64,000 nt of DNA from Streptomyces sp. ISL-94 (GTDB lineage: Bacteria > Actinomycetota > Actinomycetes > Streptomycetales > Streptomycetaceae): NCBI RefSeq assembly GCF_018614075.1, contig NZ_JAGGOZ010000013.1, positions 1-64,000 of the forward strand. Reading direction: 5' to 3'. The translations under genes and the position numbers were made by a program. Shown here in pieces: positions 2,478 through 45,677 of the stretch (position 1 is its first letter; each line of letters opens with the position of its first letter). The notes beneath the pieces were generated by a model, which was not told the origin of the DNA, searched no databases, and worked only from the letters and a program-made list of their open reading frames with translations.

Positions 2478-2801
2478 GTGGGCGGGTGAACCTGTCCGCG
2501 GTGCCGGTGAACCGCTGTCGACGTGGCCCGGTCCCGTCCTCCGGCTTCCCGGCCGGGCCGCCCAGCCCTTCGCACCACCGCACCCTGCTGCGCCAGGGAC
2601 GTGCACGGGAGGAGCGAGTCACCGGAGCCTTCGCCCTTCACTTCGCCGAACCCGCTCCAGTTCCAGAACGTAACGCGAGATAACAGACCACATCTCACGC
2701 AATGTCACTCCGGATCGTTCCGGATGCCTTGCGCGACGCTCCCCCACTACCTTGTCGACGGCGCCCGTCAGACCGACCCGTCCGGAGCCCGGGGAGCAGC
2801 G
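2478..2801. other. Intergenic region upstream of the LuxR-SARP regulator
   Basis: 324 bp without a convincing gene. It contains an inverted repeat at 2674-2699 (arms CGCGAGAT and ATCTCACG, 10-bp spacer, one mismatch). A repeated TCCGGAT follows at 2710-2716 and 2720-2726, 10 bp apart. CTACCTT near 2748-2754 could be a -10 element about 50 nt before the regulator start. SARP targets usually carry direct heptamer repeats near the promoter, so the TCCGGAT pair may be an autoregulatory site; this is inference. Confidence 0.4.
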
Positions 2802-3917
2802 ATGCCGACGACCGCCACCACCGACCGCCCAACTGCCGCCGCGCTCGGGCATCAGGAGCGCAAGGTGCTCTCCGCGGTCGGCTGCGGCCTGCGCGACGAC
2901 GAGATCGCCGCCGCCCTCGCCATCCCCGAGGACGCGGTGGCCGAACACCTCGCGCGGATCCTCGCGAAGCTCGGTCTGCGCGACCGGGCCGCCGCCATCG
3001 TCCACGCCTTCGACTGCGGCCTGGTCGTCCCCGGACGGGGCCCCCGCACGCGGTCGGTGAGCCCGGTGCTGCGGACCGCCGCCGACCGAGCGGCCGGGCC
3101 GAAGGTACAGATCTCCGTGCTCGGACCCCTGCAGGCATGGCAGGGCGGGCGGCCCCTGAACCTCGGGCATCTGCGCCGGCAAGCCGTACTGGCGGCGCTG
3201 GCGCTGTGCGCGGGGCGGACCCTCAGCCGGCAGGAACTGCTCGACGACGTATGGGGGATGGAGCCGCCGGTCGCGAACGTGGTGCCGGTATACATCTACC
3301 GATTGCGCAAGGCCCTGCGCATCGGGGACAGTCCGGACTCGGTCATTGAGCACGCCCGGTGTGGATACCGGCTGGTCTCCGGCGCAGTCGACGTGGACGT
3401 GGCACGCATGGAGGAACTGGTCACCGACATCGGGACGGCCGATCGAGCGGGCGACCCGACCGAGGCGGTCCGCCTGTGTGCCCAGGCGCTGGAGCTGTTT
3501 CGCGGGGAGCTCCTGGCCGGTTTGCCCGGGCCGCTCGCCGAACTGGAGCGGATGCGGCTCACTGAGCGCAGGGTCGCCCTCATGCAGCGGAAGTTGGAGT
3601 GGCAGCTGCGGCTGGGCCAGGAATCGGAAGCAATCGCCGAGCTGGTCGCTCTGTCCGCGGCGCACCCCGTGAACGAGCCGTTGGCCGCGATGCTGATGCG
3701 GGCGCTGTACCGGAACGGCCGACAGGCCGACGCATTGACCGTGTTCGATCGCGCCCGCCGCCGTCTGGCCGACGAGTTGGGGGTTTCTCCGAGCCGGATG
3801 TTGCGGCGCACGCACCAGATGATTCTGCGCGGCGACGAAGCCGGCCTCGGCCTCACCCCCTTGGCCGGGTGGCCGCGGACACGTGAGCTGCCCGTGCCAC
3901 CGACAACGATCGTGTAG
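2802..3917 (+). CDS. Hybrid LuxR-type HTH / SARP (BTAD) transcriptional regulator
   Basis: 371 aa with an unusual layout. Residues about 17-75 look like a LuxR/NarL-type helix-turn-helix, with HQERKVLSAVGCGLRDDEIA followed by AILAKLGLRDR-like residues. A linker of about 25 residues leads to an OmpR-type winged helix (about 101-195, from VQISVLGPLQAWQGGRPLNL). A bacterial transcriptional activation domain follows (about 197-345), including RGELLAGLPGP and ADELGVSPS. The last two are the classic small-SARP arrangement; the first HTH is extra. SARPs activate secondary-metabolite or other cluster genes in actinobacteria. ATG 2802 is chosen for its GGGGAG site. It sits directly before a group of exported enzymes and may activate them; this is inferred from position. 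Confidence 0.85.
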   Translation: MPTTATTDRPTAAALGHQERKVLSAVGCGLRDDEIAAALAIPEDAVAEHLARILAKLGLRDRAAAIVHAFDCGLVVPGRGPRTRSVSPVLRTAADRAAGPKVQISVLGPLQAWQGGRPLNLGHLRRQAVLAALALCAGRTLSRQELLDDVWGMEPPVANVVPVYIYRLRKALRIGDSPDSVIEHARCGYRLVSGAVDVDVARMEELVTDIGTADRAGDPTEAVRLCAQALELFRGELLAGLPGPLAELERMRLTERRVALMQRKLEWQLRLGQESEAIAELVALSAAHPVNEPLAAMLMRALYRNGRQADALTVFDRARRRLADELGVSPSRMLRRTHQMILRGDEAGLGLTPLAGWPRTRELPVPPTTIV

Positions 3918-4059: not shown

Positions 4060-5721
4060 ATGGCAAGACATGGCTTATACCGGGTGTACACCAGACTGGC
4101 CGTTGTCGCCGGTATATGGGCGTTGGCCATCGGGATGACCACCTCGGTTGCCATCGCCCAACCCGGGCCTGTTCCGAGCCCGGGCGATGACCGGTTCGGC
4201 GTCTCCCGCTATTTCAGTGGCCCCCAGGGGTTGGCCATTGCGACCGAGCCGTGTGATCCGGCCGGCCCGACGGCGACCGACGGCATCATGGCCGACCAGC
4301 TCAACCCACAGCTGCGCGCGAAGATGGCCGGCTACCTGAACGCCTACAAGGTGTCCTGCGCGCGGATGGTCACGCAGGCGGTGAAGGACCGGGGGCTCAA
4401 CCCCAGAGCCGCGACGATCGCCATCGCCACGATCATCGTGGAGAGCAGCATGAACAACTACTCCCAGGCCGTCGACTACACCAGCCTGGGCCTGTTCCAG
4501 CAGCAGGACTGGTGGGGTACCCGGGAAGAGCGTCTGAACCCGGCGCACGCCACCAACGCCTTCCTCGATGCGATGGAGCAGCAGTACCCGGGCGGCTCGT
4601 GGAACAACGAGGCGATCGGCGAGGTGTGCTGGCACGTCCAGCGACCGAGAGAGGACCTGCGCGGCCTGTACGCGATCGAGGCGGACGACGCGGCGCTCAT
4701 CGCCAACGCGCTGTGGTCCGGTATGGGCGGCGGCCCCAAGCACCCGTACGCCTCGGGCCGGGTGGTGTCCGGGCGGTCCGCGGACGGGCGGCTGGAGGCC
4801 TTTGCAGCTGGTGCCGATGGCGTGTACCACGCGTGGCAGACCGCAGTGAACGGCAGTTGGTCGCCATGGCGGTTCGAGGGCGGTCCGCGCAATGCGCAAC
4901 TGGCGGTAGCGTCCAATGCGGACGGCCGGCTGGAGTTGTTCGCGCTGTCGGACAGCACGTTCGATCACATGTGGCAGACCGGGCCCAGTGCGGGCTGGTC
5001 CGCCTGGGAGAACTTCGGCACCGGAGGGTACCGACTGGCGGCGGGCAGCAATGCCGACGGCCGTATCGAGGTGTTCGCATCCAATGCCAATGGTGTGTTC
5101 CACCGCTGGCAGACCGCGCCCAGCGGCGGTTGGGCCCACTGGGAAGGTGCCGGCGGCGGCCCGGCCAATGCACGACTTGCCGTCGAGAACACCCCCGACG
5201 GGCGACTCGAAGTGTTCGCGCTGTCGGACTCGACGTTCGAGCACCTGTATCAGACCGGCGTCAACGGCGGCTGGTCCGCCTGGGAGAACTTCGGCGGCGG
5301 CGGACACGCCGTCGCCGCCGGCTACAACCAGGACGGCAGGCTCGAGGTGTTCGCCTCCAACGCCCAAGGTGTGTTCCACCGCTGGCAGACCAGCCCGGCC
5401 TCGTGGTCGGAGTGGGCGGGCACCGGCGGGATCTCCAACGCCGAGCTGGCCACCTCGCGGTCGGTCGACGGCCGGGTCGAGGTGTTCGCGATCAATGCCG
5501 GCACCGCGAGCCACGCCTGGCAGACCGGCCCGAACGCGTCGTACTCGCAGTGGGAGACCTTCGGTGGCGGTGGCACCGGGATCGGGGCGGGCAACAACGC
5601 TGACGGTCGCATCGAAATCTTCGGTACCAGCCACGCCGGCATCTATCACAGGTGGCAGACCGGGTTCACCACATGGTCGGAATGGGGCTGGCTGAACGAT
5701 TCCGGGCCCGCGATCAACTAG
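4060..5721 (+). CDS. Secreted lysozyme-like protein with seven-repeat PLL-like lectin propeller
   Basis: 553-aa exported protein. A signal peptide occupies about residues 1-33. Residues about 75-225 form a lysozyme-like domain, recognised from IAIATIIVESSMNNYSQ with candidate catalytic Glu128 and the downstream SLGLFQQQ. This pattern occurs in actinobacterial and phage-tail transglycosylase or muramidase domains. From about residue 233 to the end there are seven repeats built on (A)DGR(L/I)EVFA, HxWQT and GWSxWE, matching the PLL-like (DUF346) seven-bladed propeller. PLL lectins bind fucose and O-methylated sugars, so this part probably targets the enzyme to a glycan. ATG 4060 follows GGAAAGG. 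Cleavage of peptidoglycan is inferred, not shown. Confidence 0.8.
   Translation: MARHGLYRVYTRLAVVAGIWALAIGMTTSVAIAQPGPVPSPGDDRFGVSRYFSGPQGLAIATEPCDPAGPTATDGIMADQLNPQLRAKMAGYLNAYKVSCARMVTQAVKDRGLNPRAATIAIATIIVESSMNNYSQAVDYTSLGLFQQQDWWGTREERLNPAHATNAFLDAMEQQYPGGSWNNEAIGEVCWHVQRPREDLRGLYAIEADDAALIANALWSGMGGGPKHPYASGRVVSGRSADGRLEAFAAGADGVYHAWQTAVNGSWSPWRFEGGPRNAQLAVASNADGRLELFALSDSTFDHMWQTGPSAGWSAWENFGTGGYRLAAGSNADGRIEVFASNANGVFHRWQTAPSGGWAHWEGAGGGPANARLAVENTPDGRLEVFALSDSTFEHLYQTGVNGGWSAWENFGGGGHAVAAGYNQDGRLEVFASNAQGVFHRWQTSPASWSEWAGTGGISNAELATSRSVDGRVEVFAINAGTASHAWQTGPNASYSQWETFGGGGTGIGAGNNADGRIEIFGTSHAGIYHRWQTGFTTWSEWGWLNDSGPAIN
4756..5700 (+). repeat. Seven propeller-blade repeats in the lysozyme-like protein
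   Basis: Seven coding repeats of about 135-150 bp. Each encodes xxDGR(L/I)E(V/L/I)F(A/G), a HxWQT-type strand and a GWSxWE turn. Odd and even blades alternate in spacing and in the FGGGG motif. The same unit recurs in the proteins at 9933-11444 and 11541-13571. Confidence 0.85.
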
Positions 5722-5764
5722 CCGCTTCGATCTGGATCCGATCCGGGAATGAGAGCTCCGGAGG

Positions 5765-5820
5765 GCGCCCGCCGCCGTCCCGCAGACCGCACCAGCGGCA
5801 GGCGGGACGACGGCGGGCGC
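5765..5820. terminator. Strong hairpin between convergent genes
   Basis: Arms at 5765-5783 and 5802-5820 pair over 19 bp with one mismatch around an 18-nt loop. The hairpin lies between the converging ends of the lysozyme-like gene (5721) and the acylase/esterase gene (5898). A bidirectional terminator is the simplest reading; there is no U-tract. Confidence 0.65.
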
Positions 5821-5842
5821 TTGACGTCGGGCGCTTGACGTC
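5815..5842. repeat. Tandem 14-bp direct repeat
   Basis: Two perfect adjacent copies of GGGCGCTTGACGTC (5815-5828 and 5829-5842), followed by a third GGG. The first copy overlaps the right arm of the hairpin. It is probably a slippage product, though TTGACGTC twice at 14-bp spacing could also be a protein-binding site. Confidence 0.6.
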
Positions 5843-5897
5843 GGGTACGGGGCGCGCCTGCTGAACAAGGGTGTGATGCGGCGCGGCCCTGGGGAAG

Positions 5898-8534
5898 TCA
5901 GGAGGCGAAGGCCCTTTCCAGCCTGGGAATCAGGTCCCGGAGATCCTCTTCCCAGCAGCCGGCGTTGTGGCCGCCGTTGCACTGGGTGCCCCAGCCGGAT
6001 CCGTCACCGTAGTTGACGTAGTAGTAGGGCATGCCCAGGACGTCCATACGGGCCTTGACGTTCTTGGCCGCGCCGGCGAGCCAGAACTCCATGTCGAGAG
6101 GCGAGCCGCCTCCGTCGCCCACGTAGAGGGAGACCCCGATTCCGGCGAGTCGGTCCATGTGCTGGGACGGGTCGACCTCGTTCCACCGCCAGTCGGCGTT
6201 GAACACCGGGTAGGGCGAGCCGAACAGGGCATCGCTGTCCACACCGGGCTTGTAGGGGGAGTCGTTGGGATCGCAGGCTCCGGATGCCGAGCCGCAGATC
6301 GCGCCCGCCGCATCAATGACGGAGGCGACGACGGCCATCCGCAGGTCCATGGAATCGGCCGACAGATCGATGTCTCCCGACAGGGACGCGGTCTGGCTGA
6401 ACAGGTCGGGACGGACCTGCGCGTAGCGGAAGGCCCCGAACCCGCCCATGGAGACACCGGCGACAGCCCTGGACTTCTTGGTGGCGATGGTCCGCAGGTT
6501 CGCGTCGATGAACGGAATCACCTGCTTGAGGTGGAAGTTCTCCCAGTTCTGGGCACCGAGCACCGTCTTCTGGTTGAGCCAGTTGGCGTACCAGCTCCGA
6601 GCGCCGCCGTCCGGGATGACGGTGATCATCTCGTCCGACATGCTCAGCGCCGGATAGGTCTGCTGGACCGGGTCGTCGGGCGAGCCGTGCAGGACCAGGA
6701 TGAGGCCGAAGGGGACGCTCTGGCACATCGTCACCGTGGCGTTGAGGCCCAGGTCGGCCGCCCTGCTGTTGTCGGCGAACAGCAACTGCCCCATGGTCTG
6801 CGGTGTGAAGCCCTTCCCCGGCAGGCCGTCGGTGCCGTTGATCCGGTTCTGCGCGGTCAGGATCAACTCCTGGGTCCGCAGCGACCGAGGCGCCGACATG
6901 TCGCCCATCACCCGGGGGAAGGACAGCGGCTGCTCGGGGTTGGCCAGCCAGGCGCTGTCGTTGGCGTTGCCCACGAAGTCGGACCGGATCAGGCGTGGCT
7001 GCTTGTGCGGGTCCAGCAGCCCCGGCGCGACCGCGTTCGGGTCATCGGGCCAGTCGCACGCGCTGCGCTTGCCGTCGAAGATGGAGATCGGCGGCACGTT
7101 GGGCAGCCGTAGCGACTGGTTGAACAGCAGTTTGCCCGTCTCGGTGAGGCATGACTGCGCGTGCTCGTCGGTGATGTTCGGGGTGGCCTGAATGTCCGCG
7201 TACAGCGCGTTGCCGTTGCGGTCGGAGGCGACGGTGTTGAAGAAGGGGACGCCCTGCGTGGTCTCCAGAGTGTTCACCACGTCGTTGACGTCATGTGCCT
7301 TGTCGAGGCGGAACCAGGTGTTCAACGCCCGCAGGTTGTCCATGTTCACGTCGCGTACCGCGTGCGCGCTGACCGCCCAGGGCAACGAAATGCCCTGGAT
7401 CGATGTGGTGATCGGGCCGTAACGGGTGGACCACAACGTCCTGGTGACCTTGCCGAGGGAGCCGTCCGCGTTCAGCACGTCTACACCGACCTGCTGCGAG
7501 GTCATCTTCTCCCAGGTGCCGTCCACCAGATAGCTGGTGGGGTTGAAGGGATCCACCTGTACGTCGAACAGCCCGAACGGAGCGACCGTGGCGACCGTGT
7601 GGCTCCAGGCGACGTCGTTGTTGTACCCGATGTTCACCGCGGGCAGTCCGAGCAGGCCGGCCCCGGAGACATTGACCTCTCCCGGGATCGTCAGCTGGCT
7701 CTGCCACATCCGGTTCTTTCCCTGCCACGGGAAGTGCGGGTTGGCCAGCAACATGCCGGTGCCGCCGGACACGCCCTGTGAACCGACCGCCAACGCGTTG
7801 CTGCCCATGCTCTGCTGACGGCTCACCGCCATCGCATCGCGGATCTCCGTCGCGGTCTTCGCCGGTGAGGACGCCGGCTGCGCGGCGGCCGACGCCCCCG
7901 GGGGTGCGGCGTTCACCTGACCGTCCAGCAGCGCATCGGCGCTGCCCATGATGATCTCGGCGTGTGCGTGCCGGTACACGTCCAGCTCAGTGATCGGCCG
8001 CACCCAGGCCGCACCGCGGCAGGCCGGGTCGGAGATGTTGTTCACGCCCGTCTCGGCCAGGTACCTGTTGTATCCCTGGACGTAGCCGCGAATGGCCTCT
8101 TTGACCTCCGGCTCCGGCCCGTTCGGGGCGGGCTGGCCGAGCAGCCGTTCCACCACCCGGTTGTCCTTGATCCGCTGGAAGTACAGGTCGCTGTTGAGAT
8201 TGGTGGTGCCGTTCTGGTTCTGGCCGGGGCTCGCCCTGCCATCGGGCCCCAGATAACGGGACCTCTGGGCATTGACCATCAGATAGGTGTCGGCCAAGGT
8301 GCAGACGTTGTCCTTGGCCGCCGCGTATCCGTAGCCCGTTCCCAGCCCCTCCCAGTTCGAGGCGATGATGTGCGGGATTCCGTACTCGGTGTAACGGATC
8401 GTCGGCTTGTCCGGCCCCGGTTCGGCGGCAGCCGACCGCGTGGCCGCTGACCCGGTGGCCGCCATCGTGCTCATCACCGCCACCGCGGCCGTGACCGCCA
8501 TGGGCAGCCTCGCTGTGAATCTCCTCCACGCCAT
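5898..8534 (-). CDS. Secreted acylase/esterase chimera (truncated penicillin acylase joined to Ag85-like esterase domain)
   Basis: 878 aa. After a signal peptide (about 1-35), residues to about 605 follow the penicillin acylase/aculeacin acylase (S45 Ntn-hydrolase) family: the conserved [20 protein letters not shown] start, a spacer peptide, then GSNALAVG with candidate nucleophile Ser245 after Gly244, and [11 protein letters not shown] later. The acylase match stops after NATVTMCQ. From [11 protein letters not shown] onward it is an Ag85/esterase-D-like alpha/beta hydrolase with GVSMGGFG (Ser695). The acylase lacks roughly its last 190 residues and the esterase lacks its first strands. ATG 8534 follows GAAGGA. 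Neither activity is assured; an in-frame deletion between two adjacent genes would explain the structure. Confidence 0.8.
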
Positions 8535-8874
8535 CGAGCCGTCCTTCCCCTGTGGCACAGGCCGTCGTGTGAACGCGGCAACGCTAAGGAGGACCGGTGA
8601 AATCTCGATGACGCCGCGGCACCCTCGCGCGCCATCGCCGCCCGGTGACCAGGCCCGCCGCTCCTGACCCGGACTGATCGGCAAGCCCCCCTAGCCGATG
8701 CGCTCCCGCCTGTCAGTCCGCAATCTTCCGGGGTCCCCCGGCCCCCACGCCGCTGCTACCTTCCAGACCGCCCGTTCGCACGGCCCGAGCCGACGGGCCG
8801 GCGCGGTCCGAAGCGGCGCGACGGCCTTCCGCTGCGTCGAGACACATCTTCTTACTCCCGTTCAGGAGGACACG
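8535..8874. other. Divergent promoter region of acylase/esterase and Tat esterase
   Basis: 340 bp without a convincing gene. It separates the divergently transcribed chimera and the Tat-exported esterase. GCTACCTTCC near 8756-8765 resembles the CTACCTT hexamer before the LuxR-SARP gene and could be a -10 element reading rightward. No clear operator dyad was found. Confidence 0.3.
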
Positions 8875-9864
8875 TTGAGCGCGCAGCACCCCACCCGCAG
8901 GAGCATTCTCAAGACCGCAGGAGGCCTCTCGGCCGCGGTGGCCCTGGGCGGCGCAGGCGTCCTCGCCGCCGCGTCCACCGCCTCCGCCGTCGGTGACGGC
9001 TTCGGCCTGCGCATCGTGGAGCGCGGCGAGGCGGACGCCCGCATGTGGTACTACCGGTTCCAGACCAGCGCAATCGGCTGGAATCCGGCCGTCAACGTGC
9101 TCCTCCCCGACGACTACCACTGGAGCGGACGCACGTACCCCGTGGTCTACCTCCTCCACGGAGGAGGCACGGACCAGGACTTCATCACGTTCGACCGCGA
9201 GCGCATCCGGGACTGGACCGCGGGCAAGCCGATCATCGTCGTGATGCCCGACGGCGGCCACGCGGGCTGGTACTCCAACCCCGTAAGCTCCAACGCCGGC
9301 CCGCGGAACTGGGAACAGTTCCACATCGCACAGCTGATCCCGTGGATCGATGCGAACTTCCGCACGTACGCGGAGTACGAAGGCCGTGCCGTGTCCGGTT
9401 TTTCGATGGGCGGCTTCGGCGCGCTGAAGTACGCCGCCAAGTACTACGGCCACTTCGCCTCGGTGAGCGCTCACTCCGGACCGGCCAGCCTGCGCCGGGA
9501 CAACGGCCTCGTGGTCCACTGGGCCAACGTTTCCTCCGCTGCCCTGGACCTGAACGGCGGCACGGTCTACGGGGCGCCGCTCTGGGACGAGGCCCGGGTG
9601 AACGCGGACAACCCGGTGCAGCGGATCGAGAGCTACCGCAACAAGCGGGTCTTCCTGGTCGCCGGCACCAGCCCCGATCCGATCAACTGGTTCGACACGG
9701 CCAACGAGACCCAGGTGCTCGCGGGACAGCGGGAGTTCCGCTCCCTCCTCGGCAACGCGGGGATCCCGCACGAGTGGTACGAGCTGCCCGGCGGGCACTT
9801 CATCCGCCACGACATGCTGCAGCGCGACATCGACGGCATCATCGACCGGCTGCGCAAGGCGTGA
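8875..9864 (+). CDS. Tat-exported Ag85/esterase-D-like alpha/beta hydrolase
   Basis: 329-aa secreted esterase. The N-terminus has a twin-arginine signal (TRRSILKTAGG followed by an Ala-rich stretch ending near ASTASA). The mature part has the fold signature of antigen 85/esterase D: NVLLPDDYHWSGRTYPVVYL leading to LHGGG, VMPDGGHAGWYSN, the nucleophile elbow GFSMGGFG and a C-terminal LPGGHFIRHDM with the probable catalytic His. The TTG at 8875 is chosen because AGGAGGA lies 4 nt upstream and the Tat motif begins 7 residues in. The mature domain is clearly homologous to the C-terminal part of the chimera on the other strand. It probably heads an operon with the M23 and GH43 genes (gaps of 68 and 96 bp). 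Confidence 0.85.
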   Translation: MSAQHPTRRSILKTAGGLSAAVALGGAGVLAAASTASAVGDGFGLRIVERGEADARMWYYRFQTSAIGWNPAVNVLLPDDYHWSGRTYPVVYLLHGGGTDQDFITFDRERIRDWTAGKPIIVVMPDGGHAGWYSNPVSSNAGPRNWEQFHIAQLIPWIDANFRTYAEYEGRAVSGFSMGGFGALKYAAKYYGHFASVSAHSGPASLRRDNGLVVHWANVSSAALDLNGGTVYGAPLWDEARVNADNPVQRIESYRNKRVFLVAGTSPDPINWFDTANETQVLAGQREFRSLLGNAGIPHEWYELPGGHFIRHDMLQRDIDGIIDRLRKA

Positions 9865-9932
9865 CCGCCGCCGCCCCTCGCACCCCACGTCCATCCCACT
9901 CACCCCGAGACCGCCAAGGGGAGGAGCGCCAC

Positions 9933-11444
9933 GTGCTTCCCGGACCATTGCGAACCGCACTGAACTGTGTTCTCGCGGCGGCAGCCGCCCTACTGCCGGC
10001 GCTGGCGGCCACGACTCCGGCTGCGGCCCGGACCGCCGATTTCGCCGCGGCGTGCCCGGCCGGCGGTTTCGTGTCCCAGCACTTCCACAGCGGCCACAAC
10101 GGCGTCGACATCGCCAACGACGTCGGGACGCCGATCTACGCCGTGGGCGACGGTGAGGTGACCATCTCCGGGTACACCGGCGACTACGGCCAGTGGATCC
10201 GCATCCTGCACCCCGACGGGAGGATCTCCGAGTACGGGCACATGTCCCGGCGGGACGTCTCCGTCGGCGACCGTGTCGTAGCCGGCCAGCAGATCGCACT
10301 GATGGGTGCCGAGGGCAACTCCACCGGCCCCCACCTGCATCTGCGGATCTGGGGAGACCAGTCCACCTCCTACGGCATCGACCCCGAGGCCTACCTCGCG
10401 GAGCGCGGCGTGGTGCTGCCCTGCACCCCGGGCAGCGGTCCACGGCCCAAGCAGCTGGTGTATCCGGCGGAGTCGGGCCGGGTGGTGTCGGCACGGTCGG
10501 CGGACGGTCGCCTTGAGGTGTTCGCCGCCGGTGCCGACGGCGTGCACCACGCCTGGCAGCAGGAAGCGAACGGCAGCTGGTCGGCCTGGGAGCCGCTCGG
10601 CGGACCGGGCAGCGCCGAGCTGGCCATCGCACCGAACGCGGACGGCCGCCTGGAGATGTTCGCCCTCAACGGGAGCACCTTCCAGCACCGCTGGCAACTG
10701 TCGCCCTCGGGTGGCTGGTCGAACTGGGAGACCTTCGGCGGCGGCGGCAAGGACACCGCGGCCGGCGTGAATGCCGACGGCCGCATCGAGGTCTACGCCT
10801 CCGGACCGGTCGGGCTCATGCACAGGTATCAAGTGGCCCCGAACGGCGGCTGGTCCGAGTGGGAGCCCACCGGCGGCGGCCCCGCCGACAGCCGTGTCGA
10901 GATGGAGAAGTCACCCGACGGACGCCTGGAGGTGTTCGCCCTGGGCGGCAGCACCTTCCAACACCAATACCAGACGGCTCCCAACGGCGGGTGGTCCCCG
11001 TGGGACACCTTCGGTGGTGGCGGCCATGACCTGACCGCCGACCACAACGCCGACGGCCGCCTGGAGGTCTTCGCCTCCGGCCCGGTGGGTGTGTTCCACA
11101 AATACCAGACCGGTCCCACCAGTTGGTCGCAGTGGGAACCGGCCGGCGGCCCCGCCGACTCGCAGCTCACCAGCGAACGCACCGCCGACGGCCGCGTCGA
11201 GGTCTTCGCCATGAACGGCAACACCGCCATGCACACCTGGCAAACCGCCGCCAACGCCCCCTACAGCGACTGGGCCGCCTTCGGCACCGGCGGCACCGAA
11301 GTCACCGCGACCACCAACGCCGACGGCCGCATCGAGATCTTCGGCACCAGCCAGGCCGGCACCTACCACACATGGCAGACCGGCTTCACGACCTGGTCAG
11401 ACTGGACCTGGGTCAACAACACCGCCGGCCCCGCCCTCAACTGA
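9933..11444 (+). CDS. Secreted M23 endopeptidase with seven-repeat PLL-like lectin propeller
   Basis: 503 aa. A signal peptide (about 1-33) precedes an M23/LytM domain (about 45-165) with all the expected zinc ligands: HNGVD (His55, Asp59) and GPHLHLR (His134, His136). M23 enzymes cut peptide cross-bridges of peptidoglycan. From about residue 181 the chain carries seven DGR(L/I)E(V/M/I)(F/Y)A repeats, very similar in wording and order to those of the lysozyme-like protein at 4060-5721. This makes a seven-bladed PLL-like (DUF346) glycan-binding propeller likely. The GTG start follows GGGGAGGAG. It lies 68 bp after the Tat esterase, probably in the same transcript. Substrate, self or foreign wall, cannot be told from sequence. 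Confidence 0.87.
   Translation: MLPGPLRTALNCVLAAAAALLPALAATTPAAARTADFAAACPAGGFVSQHFHSGHNGVDIANDVGTPIYAVGDGEVTISGYTGDYGQWIRILHPDGRISEYGHMSRRDVSVGDRVVAGQQIALMGAEGNSTGPHLHLRIWGDQSTSYGIDPEAYLAERGVVLPCTPGSGPRPKQLVYPAESGRVVSARSADGRLEVFAAGADGVHHAWQQEANGSWSAWEPLGGPGSAELAIAPNADGRLEMFALNGSTFQHRWQLSPSGGWSNWETFGGGGKDTAAGVNADGRIEVYASGPVGLMHRYQVAPNGGWSEWEPTGGGPADSRVEMEKSPDGRLEVFALGGSTFQHQYQTAPNGGWSPWDTFGGGGHDLTADHNADGRLEVFASGPVGVFHKYQTGPTSWSQWEPAGGPADSQLTSERTADGRVEVFAMNGNTAMHTWQTAANAPYSDWAAFGTGGTEVTATTNADGRIEIFGTSQAGTYHTWQTGFTTWSDWTWVNNTAGPALN
10476..11420 (+). repeat. Seven propeller-blade repeats in the M23 protein
   Basis: Seven coding repeats of about 135-150 bp with the same motifs and alternation as those at 4756-5700. 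The two arrays look like copies of one ancestral cassette, since even linker wording such as GRVVSxRSADGRLE is shared. Confidence 0.85.
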
Positions 11445-11540
11445 CCCGTCCCCGACCGCCCCGCACACCCGAGCCGTGGTCGGCCGTGCCCGTACGGCAC
11501 GGCCGACCGTACGGTCTGTCTGGAGAGACTGGAGAGACCC

Positions 11541-13571
11541 GTGCTTCCGATCAGCAGGCGGAACCTGTTGCGGGGTGCCGCCGGGGCGGGCGCGCTCCCG
11601 TTCCTGGGCGCCGGCCGGGCCGCGGCCGCGACCTTGGAGGACGCCCCGCCCCCTCAGTGGGTCGGCGCGGGACCCCTGGCGTACGTCTACGACCCGTCCA
11701 CCGCCGCCGGCCCTCGCTATCTCAACGACCACACCCTGATCAAGGCCCAGGGCCGCTGGCACATGTTCGGCATCGTCGGGGACAGCGCGCCGCGCGGCGA
11801 AGCCCCGGACAGCACGGCGGAGATCTCCTTCGCCCACGCCTCCGCGCCGAGCCCGCACGGGCCGTGGACCACCCACTCCGACGCGCTCACCGTCGACCCG
11901 TCCTATTTCGGCGAGGAACACCTGTGGGCGCCCCACGTCGTCGAGGCGGGCGGCAGGTTCTGGATGTTCTACGCCGCGGGCGGCGAGAGCGGTGCCGCGA
12001 TCAACCTCGCCACGTCGACCGACCTGTTCACCTGGACCCGCGAGCCGTCCGGCCCGCTGTTCCGGGGGCTCGCGGCCCGTGACCCGATGGTGCTGCGGGT
12101 CGGCGGCGAGTGGGTCATGTACTACACCGAACTCTCGGGCGCGGGCGGCCACCATGTCGTGGCCTGCCGGCGTTCCGCCGACCTCTTGCACTGGAGCGAT
12201 CCGGGCGTCGCGTTCACCGACGCGAGTACGGACGCGACCGTATCGGTCACCGAGTCGCCGTACGTCGTCGAACGGGACGGCTGGTACTACCTGTTCATCG
12301 GACCGCGGGGCGGCTACGAGGGCACCGACGTACTGGCGTCCCGGAACCCGTTCCAGTTCGGCCTCGCCGGATACGCGGGGCATGTGCCCGGGCACGCCGT
12401 CGAGGTGGTCGCCGACGGGGAGACGTGGCACGCCTGCGCCGCGGGCTGGTTCCGGCACGGGCTGTATGTGGCGCCCCTGTACTGGCGGGACACGCCACCG
12501 CCGTGGCAGAGCCCGGACAATCCGGTGGCCGGGCTCGACGTCGACGGCCGCCTCACCGTGTTCGCGCTCGACGCCTCTGACCGCTCGATGCTGCGGCGCG
12601 TGCAGCTCGACCCGTACACCGACACCTGGTCGGAGTGGGAGCCCTTCGGAGGGCCGGCCGGTGCGGTTCCCACGCTCGGCCGCACCACCGAGGGCAGGCT
12701 GGAGGTGTTCTCGCTCGCCCCGGGCGGCGTGAACCTGCACCACCGGGTGCAGCGGCCGGACAGCGGCTGGCAGGACTGGGCGGAATTCGGCGGCCCGGCC
12801 GGCGCCGCCCCGGCCGTCGCCCGCAACGCCGACGGCCGGCTGGAGGTCTTCGCCCTGAGCCCCGGCGGCGCCTCCGTCGCGCGGCGACGGCAGCGGTCAC
12901 CCGGCTCGCTGACCTGGGACCCGTGGGAGCCCGGCTTCGGTGGGGCCGCGGGCGCGCCACCGGTGGTCGCGGCCAACGCCGACGGCCGGCTGGAGGTGTT
13001 CGCCCTCTCGCCCGGCGGCTCCGGGATCCACCACCGGTGGCAGGAGGTCCCCGGCGGCCCCTGGACCGCTGCATGGCACCGGTTCGGCACCGCGGCAGGC
13101 GCCGCGCCGCGGGTGGCCAGGGACGGCAGCGGCCGCCTCACCGTCGCCGCGATCGGGCCGTCGGGCGTGGGAACCTTCTACCGGCGGCAGGCCGTGCCCA
13201 GCGGCGGCTGGGACGAGTGGCTGCCGATGTTCGGCTGGAGCGCCGCCGCCCCGGCGTTCGCCGCCAACGCCGACGGCCGGCTGGAGGCGTTCTCCCTGAC
13301 GCCCGGCGGCGCCCGGCTCAGCCACCGCTGGCAGGTCACTCCGGGCGGGAGCTCGGATCCCGGCGGGGAGTTCGGCGAGCCCGGCATCAGGCTCGCCGCC
13401 ACGCCCACGGCCGCGCTCGACTCCACCGGGCGGACGCACGTCTTCGCCGTCACCGCCGAGGGCCGGATACGGACCCGCGTCCAGGCCCAGCCGAATGGCG
13501 GATGGCGGCCGTGGACGGCTTTCGGCGATCGCGCGGTCGCGCCCCTGGTGTCGGGGAGTCCCGCTCTCTGA
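11541..13571 (+). CDS. Tat-exported GH43-like glycosidase with divergent seven-repeat propeller
   Basis: 676 aa. The N-terminus is a Tat signal (ISRRNLLRGAAGAG, Ala-rich to about residue 31). Residues about 45-325 resemble the five-bladed GH43/GH32-type catalytic fold, with candidate acids at Asp63 (LNDHT), Asp181 (AARDPMV) and Glu238 (TESPYV), the three positions expected for GH43. Target sugars of that family are often arabinan or xylan; the substrate here is open. The remaining part has seven repeats on DGRLxVFA with a longer LSPGG insertion, a more diverged version of the PLL-like propeller in the two neighbouring proteins. The GTG start is 96 bp after the M23 gene. Confidence 0.75.
   Translation: MLPISRRNLLRGAAGAGALPFLGAGRAAAATLEDAPPPQWVGAGPLAYVYDPSTAAGPRYLNDHTLIKAQGRWHMFGIVGDSAPRGEAPDSTAEISFAHASAPSPHGPWTTHSDALTVDPSYFGEEHLWAPHVVEAGGRFWMFYAAGGESGAAINLATSTDLFTWTREPSGPLFRGLAARDPMVLRVGGEWVMYYTELSGAGGHHVVACRRSADLLHWSDPGVAFTDASTDATVSVTESPYVVERDGWYYLFIGPRGGYEGTDVLASRNPFQFGLAGYAGHVPGHAVEVVADGETWHACAAGWFRHGLYVAPLYWRDTPPPWQSPDNPVAGLDVDGRLTVFALDASDRSMLRRVQLDPYTDTWSEWEPFGGPAGAVPTLGRTTEGRLEVFSLAPGGVNLHHRVQRPDSGWQDWAEFGGPAGAAPAVARNADGRLEVFALSPGGASVARRRQRSPGSLTWDPWEPGFGGAAGAPPVVAANADGRLEVFALSPGGSGIHHRWQEVPGGPWTAAWHRFGTAAGAAPRVARDGSGRLTVAAIGPSGVGTFYRRQAVPSGGWDEWLPMFGWSAAAPAFAANADGRLEAFSLTPGGARLSHRWQVTPGGSSDPGGEFGEPGIRLAATPTAALDSTGRTHVFAVTAEGRIRTRVQAQPNGGWRPWTAFGDRAVAPLVSGSPAL
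12531..13550 (+). repeat. Seven divergent propeller-blade repeats in the GH43-like protein
   Basis: Seven coding repeats of about 140-150 bp, each with an (A/D)xxGRLxVFALxPGG core. They are more divergent from each other than the arrays at 4756 and 10476, so this array is either older or under different constraint. Confidence 0.75.
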
Positions 13572-14069: not shown

Positions 14070-14879
14070 GTGAGCGGCGTAGTCGTCCATCTGCCGCAGG
14101 GAAGCGGTGGCTCCGACGGCGGCGAACCGGGCGGTGACGCGGTCACGTTACGGCTCGGCCCCGGCGAGGTGGCCCGCTTCGGACGGGGCTCCACGGCGAT
14201 CCCCGTCGAGCTGCGCCTCGCCGACGCGGCGATCTCCCGGCTCGCCGGGGAGATCCGCGTGACCGACGACCACTGGCAGCTGACGAACCACAGCACCACC
14301 CACAGTTATCTCGTGGAGAATCCGGAGGGAGCAGGGGAATACCTGAGGGTGTCGCCGCGACGGGTCGGGGCGCCCATCCCGTTCGAGTTCTCTCGCGTGG
14401 TACTGCCCACCCGCAGTGACATCGCCGTCTCCTTCCAGGTGTTCGCACCCGACCACGTCTATCTGGATCCCGAAGCCATGGGCGTCCCCTGGGGAAACCG
14501 CACGGTCACCGCGTACTCCCTGGACGAGACGGCCACATACTTCCTCGTCCTCGTCGCGCTCTGCGAACCGCGCCTGCGCGACCAGTCCCGCGTGGCGGTC
14601 CCCACCACTCCCCAGATCGTCGAGCGGCTCAGGCGGCACGTCACCTGCGGCACGCTGACCGCGCGGGCGATCAGCTCGCACATCGACTACCTCGCCGAGG
14701 AGAAGCTGCGCATCGGCGTCCTGGACACCAACGAACGCGGCAAGGGCGACCGCCGCAACGGCAAGCGGGAGGAGATCGTCGGGCTCGCACTGCGGTTCGG
14801 GCTCGTACGGGAAGAGCACCTCGCGCTGCTGCCGCCTCTGACGGGGGCCGGCCGGCGGGAGCGGCAGGCCGAGCGATGA
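14070..14879 (+). CDS. FHA-domain protein with C-terminal winged-helix-like region
   Basis: 269 aa. The first about 125 residues read as a forkhead-associated phosphothreonine-binding domain: LRLGPGEVARFGRGST, then RLAGEIRVTDDHWQLTNHS with the conserved N-H-S. The C-terminal part (about 140-250) is helical, with QIVERLRRHVTC and TARAISSHIDYLAEEKLRIG suggesting a winged-helix fold. It is cytoplasmic. The GTG start follows GGGGGAG. The next gene, a Ser/Thr kinase, starts inside its last codons with an ATGA overlap. The pair is therefore translationally coupled and this protein is probably a substrate or reader of that kinase. Confidence 0.8.
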   Translation: MSGVVVHLPQGSGGSDGGEPGGDAVTLRLGPGEVARFGRGSTAIPVELRLADAAISRLAGEIRVTDDHWQLTNHSTTHSYLVENPEGAGEYLRVSPRRVGAPIPFEFSRVVLPTRSDIAVSFQVFAPDHVYLDPEAMGVPWGNRTVTAYSLDETATYFLVLVALCEPRLRDQSRVAVPTTPQIVERLRRHVTCGTLTARAISSHIDYLAEEKLRIGVLDTNERGKGDRRNGKREEIVGLALRFGLVREEHLALLPPLTGAGRRERQAER

Positions 14880-16315
14880 CAGCGCAGCTCGGCCTGGGCC
14901 GCGCGGCGGAGTGCGACCGCACGGACCTGCTGCCGCCCGGCTACCAGGTGGGAGACTGGGTGGTCACCGAGCTGATCGGGTCCGGAGGCTGGTCCACGGT
15001 CTACGGGGCGTGGCCGGCCGACAGGAACCCGGAGCGGACCGGCGGGGCCCCCGCGGGCCGGCCTTCGGGCCCCTCCGACGTCGCGCTCAAGATCATGCCG
15101 ACTGCCGGGCTCGCGCCGCGCCAAGCGCGCAGAATCGTGGAATCCGCCCGCCGCGAGGTCGAACTCGGACGCAGGCTGGGGCATCCGCGGCTGATCGGTT
15201 TTCTGGAGACCTTCGTTCTCGCCGCGCCGGACCGGCCCTCCCTGGACGGCGCCATCGTGCTGGTCATGGAACGGGCCGCCGGCAGTCTGCGGGAGCTTGT
15301 CGACGCGGGAGTGCCCGTGGCCGATCGCAGCCGGCTGATCGCAGGAATCTGCGAGGGACTCGCCCATCTCCACCGGTCGGGCTGGGTCCACGCCGATCTC
15401 AAGCCGGAGAACGTCCTCCTGGGCACGGACCGCTCCGTGAAGCTCTCGGACTTCGGCCTCGCCACCGAGCTGACGGGGACGCACGGGTATGTGCCGCCCA
15501 TGGGCACCCTGGACTACCTCCCGCCCGAGCGCTGGAGGGCGCCCCTCGGGGAACTCGGCGTGCAGGTCCGGCCGAGTGCCGACATCTGGGCCCTGGGCAT
15601 CGTCATCCACGAGGTGTTCGCGTCCGGTGGCTCACCGTTCTCCGGCGCCACACCTGTGGCGCGGGGCGCCGCGGTCCAGGAGTACGGCGCGGGGCGTGCC
15701 CCGCTGCGCATGGACCACGCCCTGCCACCGTTCTGGCGCGCGCTGGCCGCCGACTGCCTCGCCCCGACGCACGCGGCGCGCGCCCCGCACACCGCCGATA
15801 GCCTGCTCGCCCGCATCTCCGCCCAGCAGCGGACGCCCGGGACGCGGACGGGAAGGCTGCGGGGCCGGGCCCGCGCCGCCGTCCTGGTCACCGCGCTCTG
15901 CGGGATCGCCGGGGCGGCCCTGGGCTCGGACGCGGTACGCGTGAACTCGTCCGCACCCCCCGGCGTTGCGGGCGAGACGGCGGGCACGATCCGGGTGTTC
16001 AACGCGGAGCGGGGCTGCCAGGAGCGGATCGACCGGGACCCGCAGTGCAGTCTGGGCCTGGCAATCGATCCCCTGAAGCCGTACGCCGCGGACAACGTCG
16101 TACCGACGCGGGTGTGGCACGGCGACGTCCTCGCCGCCGACTGCCAGGTGGCCGACGGGCAGCCCATCATCGACGAGGCGGACCTGCGGTCCACCCGCTG
16201 GTTCCGCGTCCGTCTCCCGCCCGGCTCTGCGCCCCCTGCGGCGTGGCTCCCCGCCGTACGCACCAAGGGACGGCCGACGCTGCCGGGGTGCCCGCACCCC
16301 GCGGCCGTGCCCTGA
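14876..16315 (+). CDS. Membrane-anchored Ser/Thr protein kinase
   Basis: 479 aa. The kinase domain spans about residues 24-310. It has a glycine loop (IGSGGWSTVYGA), Lys72 in VALK, the catalytic loop HADLKPENVLL (Asp174, with HAD rather than HRD), SDFG (Asp192) and PPE in place of APE. All residues needed for phosphotransfer are present. One transmembrane helix (about 334-352) separates it from a short extracytoplasmic part of about 125 residues with two Cys pairs and no known sensor domain. It overlaps the FHA-protein gene by 4 bp, so the two are coexpressed. The ligand of the outer domain is unknown. Confidence 0.85.
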   Translation: MTAQLGLGRAAECDRTDLLPPGYQVGDWVVTELIGSGGWSTVYGAWPADRNPERTGGAPAGRPSGPSDVALKIMPTAGLAPRQARRIVESARREVELGRRLGHPRLIGFLETFVLAAPDRPSLDGAIVLVMERAAGSLRELVDAGVPVADRSRLIAGICEGLAHLHRSGWVHADLKPENVLLGTDRSVKLSDFGLATELTGTHGYVPPMGTLDYLPPERWRAPLGELGVQVRPSADIWALGIVIHEVFASGGSPFSGATPVARGAAVQEYGAGRAPLRMDHALPPFWRALAADCLAPTHAARAPHTADSLLARISAQQRTPGTRTGRLRGRARAAVLVTALCGIAGAALGSDAVRVNSSAPPGVAGETAGTIRVFNAERGCQERIDRDPQCSLGLAIDPLKPYAADNVVPTRVWHGDVLAADCQVADGQPIIDEADLRSTRWFRVRLPPGSAPPAAWLPAVRTKGRPTLPGCPHPAAVP

Positions 16316-22033: not shown

Positions 22034-23005
22034 ATGCCCCACGGATCGTTGAGTCGCCGAGGACTGCTTCGCGCGGGGAGCGGAATGGGTCTTGCCGCGC
22101 TCGGCCTGGGACTCGGAGCCGCACCCGCGTCGGCCGCGGTTCCGGTGTCGAAGCGCTTCGACCTGACCCAGCCGTCGTACGACCTGTTCCGCGGCAAGAC
22201 CCTGCGCGATGACACCGTGCAGCAGAGTTTCGCCTTCGACAACGTCAACCGGCGGCTCTTCCTCGCCCAGCGCCGCAACGGCACGGCCGAGACGGCCGGA
22301 GACCTGTGCATCACGCAGCTCGACTTCGCCGGCAACCAGCTCGGCTACATGTACCTGACCGGCTTCGGCCACGGCGTCGCCTTCGGCGCCCAGGGGGTCG
22401 GTACGTCCACATATCTGTGGACGGAAGTCGACGCCAACGGCAACGGCTACGGCGGCCGCCTCGCGCGCTTCCGGTTCACCAACGGCGTGACACTGACGAA
22501 CACCTCGTCTGCGCTCACCAAGTTCAAGCCGGTCGCGGCCGCCACCGAGCACACCTGTGCCATCGATCCCGTCCACAACCGCCTCGTGGTCCGTTACCAC
22601 CTGAACGGAGCCAAGCACATCGCCCTCTACGGCCTCACGGCCGCCGCGAACGGCGATTTCAGCAGCCCGCTCGCCGACTTCGCGCAGCCGACGCTCGGCT
22701 CACGCTCGTCCACGTTCCAGGGCTACACGGCCTACGGCAGTTACCTGTACCTCCTGACCGGAACCTCGTACGAAGCGAACGGCAACGTGGTCGACTCCGA
22801 GATCACGAGCGTCAATCTGAACACCGGCGCCATCAGCCAGGGCCCCGTGCTGACCAACGCCGGCTCCACCCTCACCTTCCGGGAGCCGGAGGGGCTGGCG
22901 GTCTATCAGACGGCGGACGGTGAGTCCCGCCTCTTCCTCGGCTTCGCCTCGGGCGCGGCCGGCGACCGGCGCTCCAACCTCTTCTACAAAAACGTCCTGG
23001 TCTGA
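22034..23005 (+). CDS. Tat-exported beta-propeller protein (P68 RBP/TagC-like)
   Basis: 323 aa. The Tat signal reads LSRRGLLRAGSGMG with cleavage after ASA near residue 34. The mature protein starts with SKRFDLTQPSYDLFRGKTLR and FAFDNVNRRLFLAQ, wording typical of the P68 receptor-binding/TagC-like propeller proteins that Streptomyces genomes often label teichoic-acid biosynthesis protein C or phage baseplate protein. The label does not imply either role. Repeated Trp/Gly-rich strands (YMYLTGFGHGVAFGAQG, YLWTEVDANGNGYGG) support a propeller. The start follows GGAGG. The substrate or partner is unknown. Confidence 0.7.
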   Translation: MPHGSLSRRGLLRAGSGMGLAALGLGLGAAPASAAVPVSKRFDLTQPSYDLFRGKTLRDDTVQQSFAFDNVNRRLFLAQRRNGTAETAGDLCITQLDFAGNQLGYMYLTGFGHGVAFGAQGVGTSTYLWTEVDANGNGYGGRLARFRFTNGVTLTNTSSALTKFKPVAAATEHTCAIDPVHNRLVVRYHLNGAKHIALYGLTAAANGDFSSPLADFAQPTLGSRSSTFQGYTAYGSYLYLLTGTSYEANGNVVDSEITSVNLNTGAISQGPVLTNAGSTLTFREPEGLAVYQTADGESRLFLGFASGAAGDRRSNLFYKNVLV

Positions 23006-42175: not shown

Positions 42176-42185
42176 GTGACGTCAC
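42176..42185. promoter_or_regulatory. GTGACGTCAC palindrome between PARG and egtA
   Basis: Perfect 10-bp palindrome 30 bp upstream of ATG 42215, within the 107-bp divergent control region. TTGACC at 42151-42156 may be a -35 reading toward egtA. An operator role is inferred. The first GTG of the palindrome is also an alternative egtA start. Confidence 0.35.
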
Positions 42186-42214
42186 GGCCGACGACGGGAG
42201 ACGAGGACCCGCTC

Positions 42215-44901: not shown

Positions 44902-45677
44902 TGTGCCGTCATCTCGCTTACCTGGGAGCGGAGATACCCCTGGGAAGGCTGCTGAGCGAGCCCAAGCACTCGCTGGTGCGCCAGGCCTGGGAGCCCCGCC
45001 GCCAGCGCAGCGGCACCGTCAACGCCGACGGCTTCGGGGTCGGCTGGTACGCGGAGGGCGATCCCGTTCCCGCGCGCTACCGCCGGTCCGGGCCCATCTG
45101 GGCGGACCTGGCCTTCACCGATCTCGCCCGTGTGGTCCGCAGCGGCGCCGCGCTGGCCGCCGTACGCGATGGCACGCGGCCGGGCGCCGACGGGGAGGCC
45201 GCGGCGGCGCCGTTCGCGGACGGGCCGTGGCTGTTCAGCCACAACGGCTCGGTGCGGGACTGGCCGGACTCGGCGGCTCCGCTCGCGCTCGGCCTGCCGC
45301 CCGAGGAACTGCTCCAGCTGGCCGCGCGCACGGATTCGGCGCTGGTCTGGGCGCTGGTCCTGCACCGGCTGCGCTCGGGGGACGCTCCCGGCACGGCGCT
45401 GGCCGAGACGGTCAGGGAACTGGCCGAGGCGGCCCCCGGCTCCCGGCTGAACCTGCTGCTGACGGACGGCGTCACGATCGCCGCTACGGCCTGGGGCGAT
45501 TCGCTCTGGTACCTGGCCGACGCGGAGGCGCACCGCGTGGTGGTGGCGTCCGAGCCCTACGACGACGATGCCCGCTGGTGTGAAGTTCCCGACCTGACCC
45601 TGCTGACCGCCACCCGTACCCGGGTCGACCTGACCCCGCTCAAGGAGACCCCGCTGAGGGAGAAGGAGCGCCAGTGA
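44901..45677 (+). CDS. egtC: Ergothioneine biosynthesis glutamine amidotransferase-like hydrolase EgtC
   Basis: 258 aa of class II glutamine amidotransferases. Cys2 after the initiator Met (MCRHLAYLG) is the N-terminal nucleophile, and NADGFGVGWY and FSHNGSVRDW form the substrate pocket. EgtC removes the glutamate from gamma-glutamyl-hercynylcysteine sulfoxide. The start follows the egtB stop directly, sharing a base (TGATG), so translation is coupled. Confidence 0.93.
   Translation: MCRHLAYLGAEIPLGRLLSEPKHSLVRQAWEPRRQRSGTVNADGFGVGWYAEGDPVPARYRRSGPIWADLAFTDLARVVRSGAALAAVRDGTRPGADGEAAAAPFADGPWLFSHNGSVRDWPDSAAPLALGLPPEELLQLAARTDSALVWALVLHRLRSGDAPGTALAETVRELAEAAPGSRLNLLLTDGVTIAATAWGDSLWYLADAEAHRVVVASEPYDDDARWCEVPDLTLLTATRTRVDLTPLKETPLREKERQ

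Follow-up and report, generated by a model that had tools for sequence, protein, structure and literature searches.

A stretch of 64,000 nucleotides from Streptomyces sp. ISL-94 (contig NZ_JAGGOZ010000013.1, positions 1–64,000 of the forward strand, here called the window) encodes three exported hydrolases that each end in a seven-bladed propeller like that of the PLL lectins. The three, a GH184-like putative muramidase (LYS), a putative M23 endopeptidase and a putative GH43-like glycosidase, belong to a gene cluster that also encodes an acylase, two esterases and a SARP-type regulator. The anatomy of the cluster, the fold and conservation of its proteins, their clustering in other genomes, the swapping of the propeller between catalytic domains and the sequence of an operator are established computationally. 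The most probable reading, at roughly 60%, is that these genes form a co-regulated, secreted and lectin-targeted set of envelope hydrolases used on other bacteria.

Propellers and catalytic domains of the three proteins

The genes for LYS (4060–5721), the M23 protein (9933–11444) and the GH43 protein (11541–13571) are all on the + strand. Split at a DGR-type motif, the C-terminus of each open reading frame (ORF) falls into seven repeats of 40–50 residues, the first of which starts at residue 241 of 553 in LYS, 190 of 503 in the M23 protein and 334 of 676 in the GH43 protein; the propellers are encoded at 4741–5718, 10458–11441 and 12507–13568, respectively. A phmmer search of PDB sequences matched all three to the Photorhabdus PLL/PHL lectins (1.2e-58, 2e-55 and 1.6e-40, in the same order). 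The AlphaFold model of LYS (31-row alignment, mean pLDDT 80.8) has a complete PLL-type propeller at residues 230–553, which compares to PLL4 with a VIA Z of 39.2 and a root-mean-square deviation of 1.9 over 318 aligned residues. The model of the GH43 protein (25 rows, mean pLDDT 80.5) has a PLL-type propeller at residues 322–669 (VIA Z 42.9, deviation 1.9, 332 aligned). The assignment to PLL was made by sequence and predicted fold for LYS and the GH43 protein, and by sequence for the M23 protein.

An earlier reading of the DNA, made from the letters without database searches (the sequence-only reading), had proposed a seven-repeat, PLL-like propeller on these three hydrolases. The repeat count, the PLL matches and the fold bear this out, and structure prediction, which that reading had named as a possible refutation, gave propellers in both LYS and the GH43 protein. 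Its PLL label stands, but its equation of the pattern with DUF346 does not: Pfam DUF346 (PF03984) had no match at E≤1 in any of the three proteins, and FG-GAP_3 is the Pfam family that matches them in its place. PF03984 used as a genome probe gave no match either, its positive controls included, and so carries no weight on absence. Across the strain's own 7.37 Mb genome, a single-sequence search (E≤1e-3, 23 of 23 candidates scored) found these three propeller genes only, and a 14-row profile at E≤1e-25 found the same three and no others among the 5 or 8 of 69 candidates that were scored.

The catalytic part of LYS (ca. 4237–4726) has no significant match to a Pfam family. Because the list from a fold search with the whole model was filled with propellers, the domain was assigned with a sequence profile instead – a 12-row profile of the N-terminal domain matched the solved GH184 muramidases 8b2h (2.7e-15) and 8b2e (8.4e-7). 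The catalytic residue of TtGH184 from T. terrestris is given as Glu125, together with Asp150 (PMC10394673), and LYS residues E128 and D139, which align with these two, are invariant in 31 of 31 rows. The domain is predicted to be GH184-muramidase-like, which keeps the muramidase-type activity of the earlier label, a lysozyme-like domain, and sharpens it to a family. At two other loci (L054 and L060), a domain related to the catalytic part of LYS is joined to M23.

The M23 part of the second protein (10092–10361; Pfam Peptidase_M23, 6.7e-29) carries HxxxD and HxH motifs, which we take to be the metal ligands. The catalytic part of the GH43 protein (ca. 11679–12494) has a five-bladed core besides its match to Pfam Glyco_hydro_43 (3.7e-14), and residues D63, D181 and E238, presumably the Asp/Asp/Glu catalytic triad of GH43, are invariant in 25 of 25 rows. 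The exact family of this domain is unsure because weak matches to GH130 and GH32 were also found, and a related sub-type at another locus (L011) matches GH32 better than GH43. The best profile matches are to 5mt2 (6e-12) and then to endo-L-arabinanases (4e-10). The protein also has a match to TAT_signal (6e-4), below the Pfam cut-off. The activities of all three proteins are putative.

In PHL, the galactose sites consist of the Arg and Glu of DGRxE and the Trp of HxW, with the Gln and the first WSxW Trp of the next blade, and the fucose/O-methyl sites consist of a Thr, another Trp and the second Trp of WSxW (PMC5584973). Site positions were mapped by residue spacing onto the PLL sequence, and the mapping is approximate because the loops of the window propellers differ in length. 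Counted by eye, the complete polar motif (Arg/Glu/Trp and the Gln/Trp of the next blade) is found in 5 of 7 blades in LYS, 4 of 7 in the M23 protein and 2 of 7 in the GH43 protein, for which the case is weak. The polar residues are largely invariant across the 31 LYS rows. The first Trp of the fucose/O-methyl site is kept in none of the 21 blades (0 of 7 in each array), which goes against the specificity for fucose and O-methylated sugars that had been carried over from known lectins; blade 1 of some Catenulispora-like relatives (L088, L089, L091 and L092) retains this residue. Should the propellers bind sugars, as these sites suggest, a common glycan is plausible for the LYS and M23 arrays. 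Its extension to the GH43 array, which the sequence-only reading had made, is unsupported: this array is ca. 36% identical to the LYS array, forms a deep branch of its own in the propeller tree and has few of the polar sites.

Recurrence, partner swapping and evolution of the module

A contig scan with P0001 gave 78 loci. Gene content was examined at 55 loci, consisting of 44 of the 78 (L006–L048 and L053) and 11 stretches (L085–L095); they are not fully independent, as L048 and L091 are apparently on the same contig. A muramidase domain was found at 34 of the 55, an M23 domain at 29, a GH43 domain at 34, an acylase at 21, an esterase of the PS1 kind at 29, the second esterase of the cluster (EST) at 37 and a SARP at 28, with both esterase counts inflated because the two esterases cross-match. 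The neighbourhood thus recurs in other genomes, and the co-occurrence of the genes, which had also been put forward as a test, gave no refutation. At L053, the muramidase and M23/GH43 propeller genes match in short parts, as if shortened by deletion, and the acylase and esterase are full-length.

At least 35 of 246 genomes of the window's genus (its own included) have a propeller match at E≤1e-25, and at least 24 have a match of more than 300 bits; both are lower bounds, as eight candidates were scored per genome. Twenty of the 24 have at least two such matches, which in every case fall within 15 kb of a single contig. The other four have two together and one on another contig (G499), two on separate contigs (G475), or one each (G593 and G572). 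In G505 and G572, the propeller matches are interrupted by a stop codon. Across the phylum, a propeller match was found in 10 of an even draw of 396 genomes.

The propeller is joined to a variety of catalytic domains. The partners of the 106 propeller ORFs at L006–L053 were LYS (30), GH43-like (28), M23 (25), NlpC-like (14), SLT_3 (7), GH25 (1) and one unclassified domain. Peptidoglycan-hydrolase-like partners account for 77 of the 106, in a tally in which LYS is over-represented because the loci were found with P0001. Pfam backs the SLT_3 (5e-36) and GH25 (6e-33) partners.

Related propellers, with 32–36% identity to the LYS propeller, are found in Catenulispora-like genomes, where the partners are DUF2961/GH172 (L085, 1.6e-55; L086) and GH76 (L085, 6e-46; L086). 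Rv2525c-like domains also occur with related propellers (L085, L086, L087 and L098), accompanied by NlpC-like partners, and a GDSL esterase gene lies among the propeller genes of L085 and L086. In two genomes (G042 and G039), the one GH183 (DUF4185) gene that was found is the immediate neighbour of a GH25-PLL gene and has the same orientation. The GH183 gene is not beside a propeller gene in G041, G043 and G046, so that the adjacency holds in two of the five genomes with GH183 over the cut-off, both close relatives. L088, in G046, encodes a SARP of another build (BTAD, NB-ARC and TPR; 33% identity), a GH43 protein (58%) without a propeller, an NlpC-PLL protein, an EST (71%), a GH25-PLL protein, a penicillin acylase and a PS1-kind esterase (52%). 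By sequence, this parts list resembles that of the window, with other predicted peptidoglycan hydrolases. In all, nine kinds of hydrolase domain, mostly directed at bacterial walls, bear the PLL propeller as an exchangeable tail.

A maximum-likelihood tree was made of 108 propellers – the 106 ORFs minus one short M23 row (L010), plus the three of the window. Its groups are a GH43-type, an M23/SLT-type (95/95) and a LYS/NlpC/GH25-type (96/89). The LYS and M23 arrays of the window are colinear and 64% identical. They fall in two separate supported clades, each with other Streptomyces orthologues (nearest 90% and 89%), and the longest identical DNA run between them is 17 bp. These sequences point to an old duplication; recent copying between the two arrays is ruled out by the separate clades and the short identical run. 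The earlier suggestion that one array was copied from the other therefore survives as paralogy, not as a recent event.

Some neighbouring propellers in other genomes have a different history. At eight loci, two adjacent genes that differ in catalytic domain have propellers that are each other's sisters in the tree: M23 and SLT at L043, L044 and L045; LYS and NlpC-like at L023, L032, L033 and L036; and GH25 and NlpC-like at L048. Support for these pairs is 92/95 at L032 and is starred at the remaining seven. Among 12 neighbouring pairs, nine have identical DNA runs of 86–377 bp, and the other three have runs of 28, 35 and 42 bp. As controls, runs were 23–33 bp in cross-genome paralogues (five pairs), 17–24 bp in LYS–M23 pairs within a genome (three pairs), and 84 bp in an orthologue pair with 94.6% identity. 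Because of this last value, runs near 90 bp are unremarkable in pairs more than 91% identical. The telling runs are those of L023 (377 bp at 85.8% overall identity), L045 (264 bp) and L011 (123 bp at 86.9%). The L023 and L011 pairs are mosaic, with windows of 92–100% identity beside windows of 58–93%. Gene conversion restricted to the propeller module would explain the shared tracts, with mis-assembly also possible. Homogenised propellers next to unrelated catalytic domains would be a clear example of a single module under concerted evolution.

Gene layout and a SARP-like operator

The SARP-type gene (2523–3917, + strand; Pfam BTAD 2.8e-41, Trans_reg_C 1.2e-12, GerE 2.1e-8) is upstream of LYS and encodes the candidate regulator of the cluster. 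Five of the 28 SARP homologues in the loci examined are distant (31–53% identity). The gene is beside the muramidase gene at 19 of the 28 loci, upstream on the same strand at 16 and divergent at three.

Within the window, the upstream regions of LYS and the acylase gene share no more 9-mers than shuffled sequences do (one against 2.6 expected), and the operator was found via relatives instead. An alignment of the sequences before the muramidase genes of relatives has a conserved TCATCGG-N4-TCATCGG, or near to it, followed by seven bases and a −10-like hexamer. The published rule for SARP activators is binding to direct repeats with an 11 bp spacing, of which the 3’ one lies 8 bp from the −10 (PMC10936776; PMC5930380). 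The geometry found here fits this rule, with the same 11 bp spacing and seven bases to the −10-like hexamer in place of the published 8.

The window has a putative SARP-like operator/promoter before the acylase gene (8580–8611, − strand), where a −10-like hexamer accompanies a pair of direct repeats with the 11 bp spacing. It scored 39.7 with a position weight matrix built from 15 examples; six shuffles of the window reached at most 14.1, and the second site in the window, at 17584, scored 16.5. At up to 3 mismatches it is the sole match in the strain's own genome, to a pattern partly derived from the window site itself. In 50 loci there are 46 sites with a score of at least 30, all on the correct strand and 80–255 bases before a coding match. 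Seventeen precede LYS genes, seven NlpC-like genes and 22 acylase genes (one of the acylases truncated), accounting for all 46. The operator is present at 21 of 21 loci that have at least half of the acylase. These sites suggest SARP control of the muramidase or NlpC-like genes together with the acylase gene.

The three propeller genes are not contiguous. LYS and the M23 gene are separated by a divergent acylase-esterase gene and by the EST gene (8698–9864, + strand), which encodes an exported CE1-type esterase (Pfam Esterase 2e-50; TAT_signal 0.0012, below the cut-off) with feruloyl esterases as its nearest PDB sequences (2.9e-17). EST, M23 and GH43 are consecutive on the + strand, 68 and 96 bases apart, and are probably in one operon.

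The divergent gene (5898–8684, − strand) encodes a PvdQ-like acylase (ca. 6744–8402) and an esterase of the Ag85/PS1 kind (5898–6704) in one frame. The acylase matches 5c9i (5.5e-112) and the NCBIfam PvdQ model (4.9e-134, yet below the cut-off of the model). The PDB matches of the esterase are, in order, PS1 (1.1e-13), 8z91 (5.5e-11), 5vol (5.2e-9), Cmt1 (1.3e-8, spanning nearly the full length), feruloyl esterases and Ag85B (3.7e-6); PS1 and Cmt1 we take to be corynebacterial mycoloyltransferases. At L006, L008 and L014, the acylase and the esterase are separate frames, and the acylase has 835–847 residues from stop to stop. The spacing between the matched parts is ca. 0.97 kb in L006, compared to ca. 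30 bases in the window. Because of the separate frames and the longer spacing in relatives, the gene in the window looks like a fusion by deletion. Ca. 0.95 kb is apparently missing between its acylase and esterase, leaving the acylase without its C-terminal part; this may be a real deletion or an assembly error.

Two further genes are conserved downstream of the propeller genes. One (14070–14879, + strand) encodes a protein of 269 aa with no Pfam family at 1e-5 and is found at 29 of the 55 loci, and the other (14876–16315, + strand) encodes a serine/threonine protein kinase (Pkinase 7.4e-32) and is found at 28. Upstream, the genes at 120–1865 and 1911–2477 were found at none of the 55 loci (E≤1e-15, half coverage) and were left out of the cluster. 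Elsewhere in the window, the gene at 22034–23002 (+ strand) encodes another propeller protein, which has a signal-like start and matches Pfam Phage_RBD_prop, a phage five-bladed receptor-binding platform (1.7e-24). The genes at 42176–46714 (+ strand) match GCS2 (3.7e-60), FGE-sulfatase with DinB_2, and a histidine-specific methyltransferase (8e-114), and are presumably for ergothioneine biosynthesis.

Probable target and likeness to known systems

In the favoured reading, the window has one locus of a modular cluster found in Actinomycetes, in which two or more putative peptidoglycan-cleaving enzymes (in this case the muramidase and the M23 endopeptidase) would be exported with the propeller as a multivalent carbohydrate anchor, acting via the polar inter-blade sites. 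The acylase, the two esterases and the GH43-like glycosidase would supply lipid and polysaccharide cleavage. The SARP of the cluster probably activates the acylase gene along with that of the muramidase (or of the NlpC-like protein), from the direct-repeat promoters. The target would most likely be the envelope of other bacteria, rather than the growing wall of the producer. Joint action on an envelope or a foreign wall had been suggested by the sequence-only reading, and it is strengthened here, mostly by evidence from beyond 4060–13571.

Several observations weigh against this reading. The window copy is partly degenerate, with a truncated acylase fused to an esterase and the operator present before the acylase gene only, not before the muramidase gene. 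Fifteen of the operator sequences had themselves served to build the matrix. No operator scoring 30 or more was found in 22 other fetched loci (L085–L108 minus L093 and L094; Catenulispora-like and others), none in the Pseudonocardiaceae loci and none before EST, M23 or GH43 genes, and only 17 of 34 LYS genes are preceded by one. Because of this limited distribution, the evidence for co-regulation extends to one half of the cluster, in part of Streptomyces. The partner tally is biased toward LYS, and the NlpC-like label was given by motif, with Pfam NlpC/P60 matching one of two scanned proteins below the cut-off (0.0061) and the other not at all. The polar motif may be partly structural, and the GH43 propeller may bind a different ligand.

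A narrower version, offered tentatively, is that the cluster is a SARP-triggered extracellular system that lets Streptomyces and its allies attack mycolic-acid neighbours by breaking down their mycolyl-arabinogalactan-peptidoglycan envelope. The esterase and acylase would act on lipids, GH43 on galactan or arabinan, and GH184 and M23 on peptidoglycan, with the propellers as a shared envelope-glycan anchor matched by gene conversion. What makes mycolic-acid bacteria attractive as a target is the PS1-kind esterase, together with the links in Catenulispora-like genomes and the reported co-aggregation of actinomycetes with mycolic-acid bacteria (PMC9068768). Points against it are that the ordinary esterases 8z91 and 5vol rank above Cmt1, and feruloyl esterases above Ag85B, among the matches of that esterase, and that none of five genomes tested from the window's genus has a GH172 match, or a GH183 match above the cut-off. 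G000 has neither; two of G004, G012, G015 and G035 have sub-cut-off GH183 matches, and none of these four has GH172. Even so, it suggests, as an idea that can be tested, a natural set of enzymes against mycolic-acid walls.

It is also possible, if doubtful, that the enzymes scavenge dead bacterial debris in soil non-specifically, with lectins for sugars common to many walls. Several wall polymers seem to be covered by the cluster, and the published lectins would suit such a role: in crystals, the polar sites of PHL hold D-Gal, and PLL3 has millimolar affinity for D-Gal and D-Glc (PMC5584973, PMC6943638). The dedicated operator and the repeated homogenisation of adjacent propellers argue otherwise, as they suggest selection for matched specificity.

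Remodelling of the producer's own wall during growth or sporulation, with the propellers anchoring autolysins to a wall polymer, is unlikely. M23, NlpC/P60 and SLT enzymes are common Streptomyces autolysins, and the conserved serine/threonine kinase is consistent with such a role. However, the cluster is patchy within the genus (at least 35 of 246 genomes) and therefore not part of core morphogenesis, and the partners include an acylase and an Ag85/PS1-kind esterase, with GH172 and GH76 elsewhere. Rather improbable, too, is that the propellers are not lectins and serve as protein-binding or oligomerisation scaffolds with the PLL fold. Propellers are widely used for other purposes, and the first fucose-site Trp is absent throughout; against this, the polar Arg/Glu/Trp/Gln/Trp set is largely invariant among the LYS rows and complete in most blades of LYS and the M23 protein. 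Plant-polymer degradation, with arabinoxylan or arabinan as the substrate of GH43 and the CE1 esterase and hemicellulose as the ligand of the propellers, draws on the endo-L-arabinanase matches of GH43 and the feruloyl esterase matches of EST and is very improbable, given the 77 of 106 peptidoglycan-hydrolase-like partners (in a P0001-biased sample) and an acylase ill-suited to a plant substrate.

The cluster provides a defined set of parts for studying attack by actinomycetes on other bacteria, and a source of candidate wall-binding modules. These parts are of known kinds. Nothing in the literature searched, which covered titles and the openings of abstracts and left most subscription papers outside, described their combination, the link to the operator or the homogenised lectin module.

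Among the known systems, the GH184 muramidases share with the window LYS the equivalents of Glu125 and Asp150, and the stretch between the two residues is shorter in LYS. Bacterial GH184 members are described (PMC10394673) as having no cell-wall-binding domain; in contrast, the bacterial GH184-like domain of the window bears a PLL propeller as a candidate wall-binding domain. The PvdQ-like acylases are represented by the match to 5c9i, from which the window acylase differs by its setting in a wall-hydrolase cluster, its truncation and its fusion to an esterase. Mycobacterial arabinogalactan is reported to be degraded by loci with GH172, GH183 and GH116 enzymes acting on D-arabinan and GH43_31 on galactan; GH172 members include D-arabinofuranosidases and also D-fructofuranosidases, and GH183 members include endo-D-arabinanases, of mycobacterial wall degradation (PMC10115798, PMC10509167). 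The GH172- and GH76-propeller genes and the GH183 link tie such loci to the Catenulispora-like relatives only; in the window's genus, the five genomes tested had no GH172 match and, for GH183, matches below the cut-off at most. Antibiotic clusters under SARP control are alike in having the SARP gene within the cluster and in the geometry of the repeats, but here the putative targets are secreted hydrolases and not a biosynthetic pathway.

The closest likeness of the propellers is to Photorhabdus PLL and PHL, members of a group of PLL-like lectins named PropLec7A (PMC7778903). Both have the same seven W-motif blades, with E values of 1e-40 to 1e-58, VIA Z of 39–43 and polar residues that are partly kept. 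The Photorhabdus lectins, from which the PLL fold is best known, are free-standing, whereas the propellers of the window are C-terminal tails of secreted hydrolases, with other loop lengths and without the first fucose-site Trp, in a cluster with a partly shared operator.

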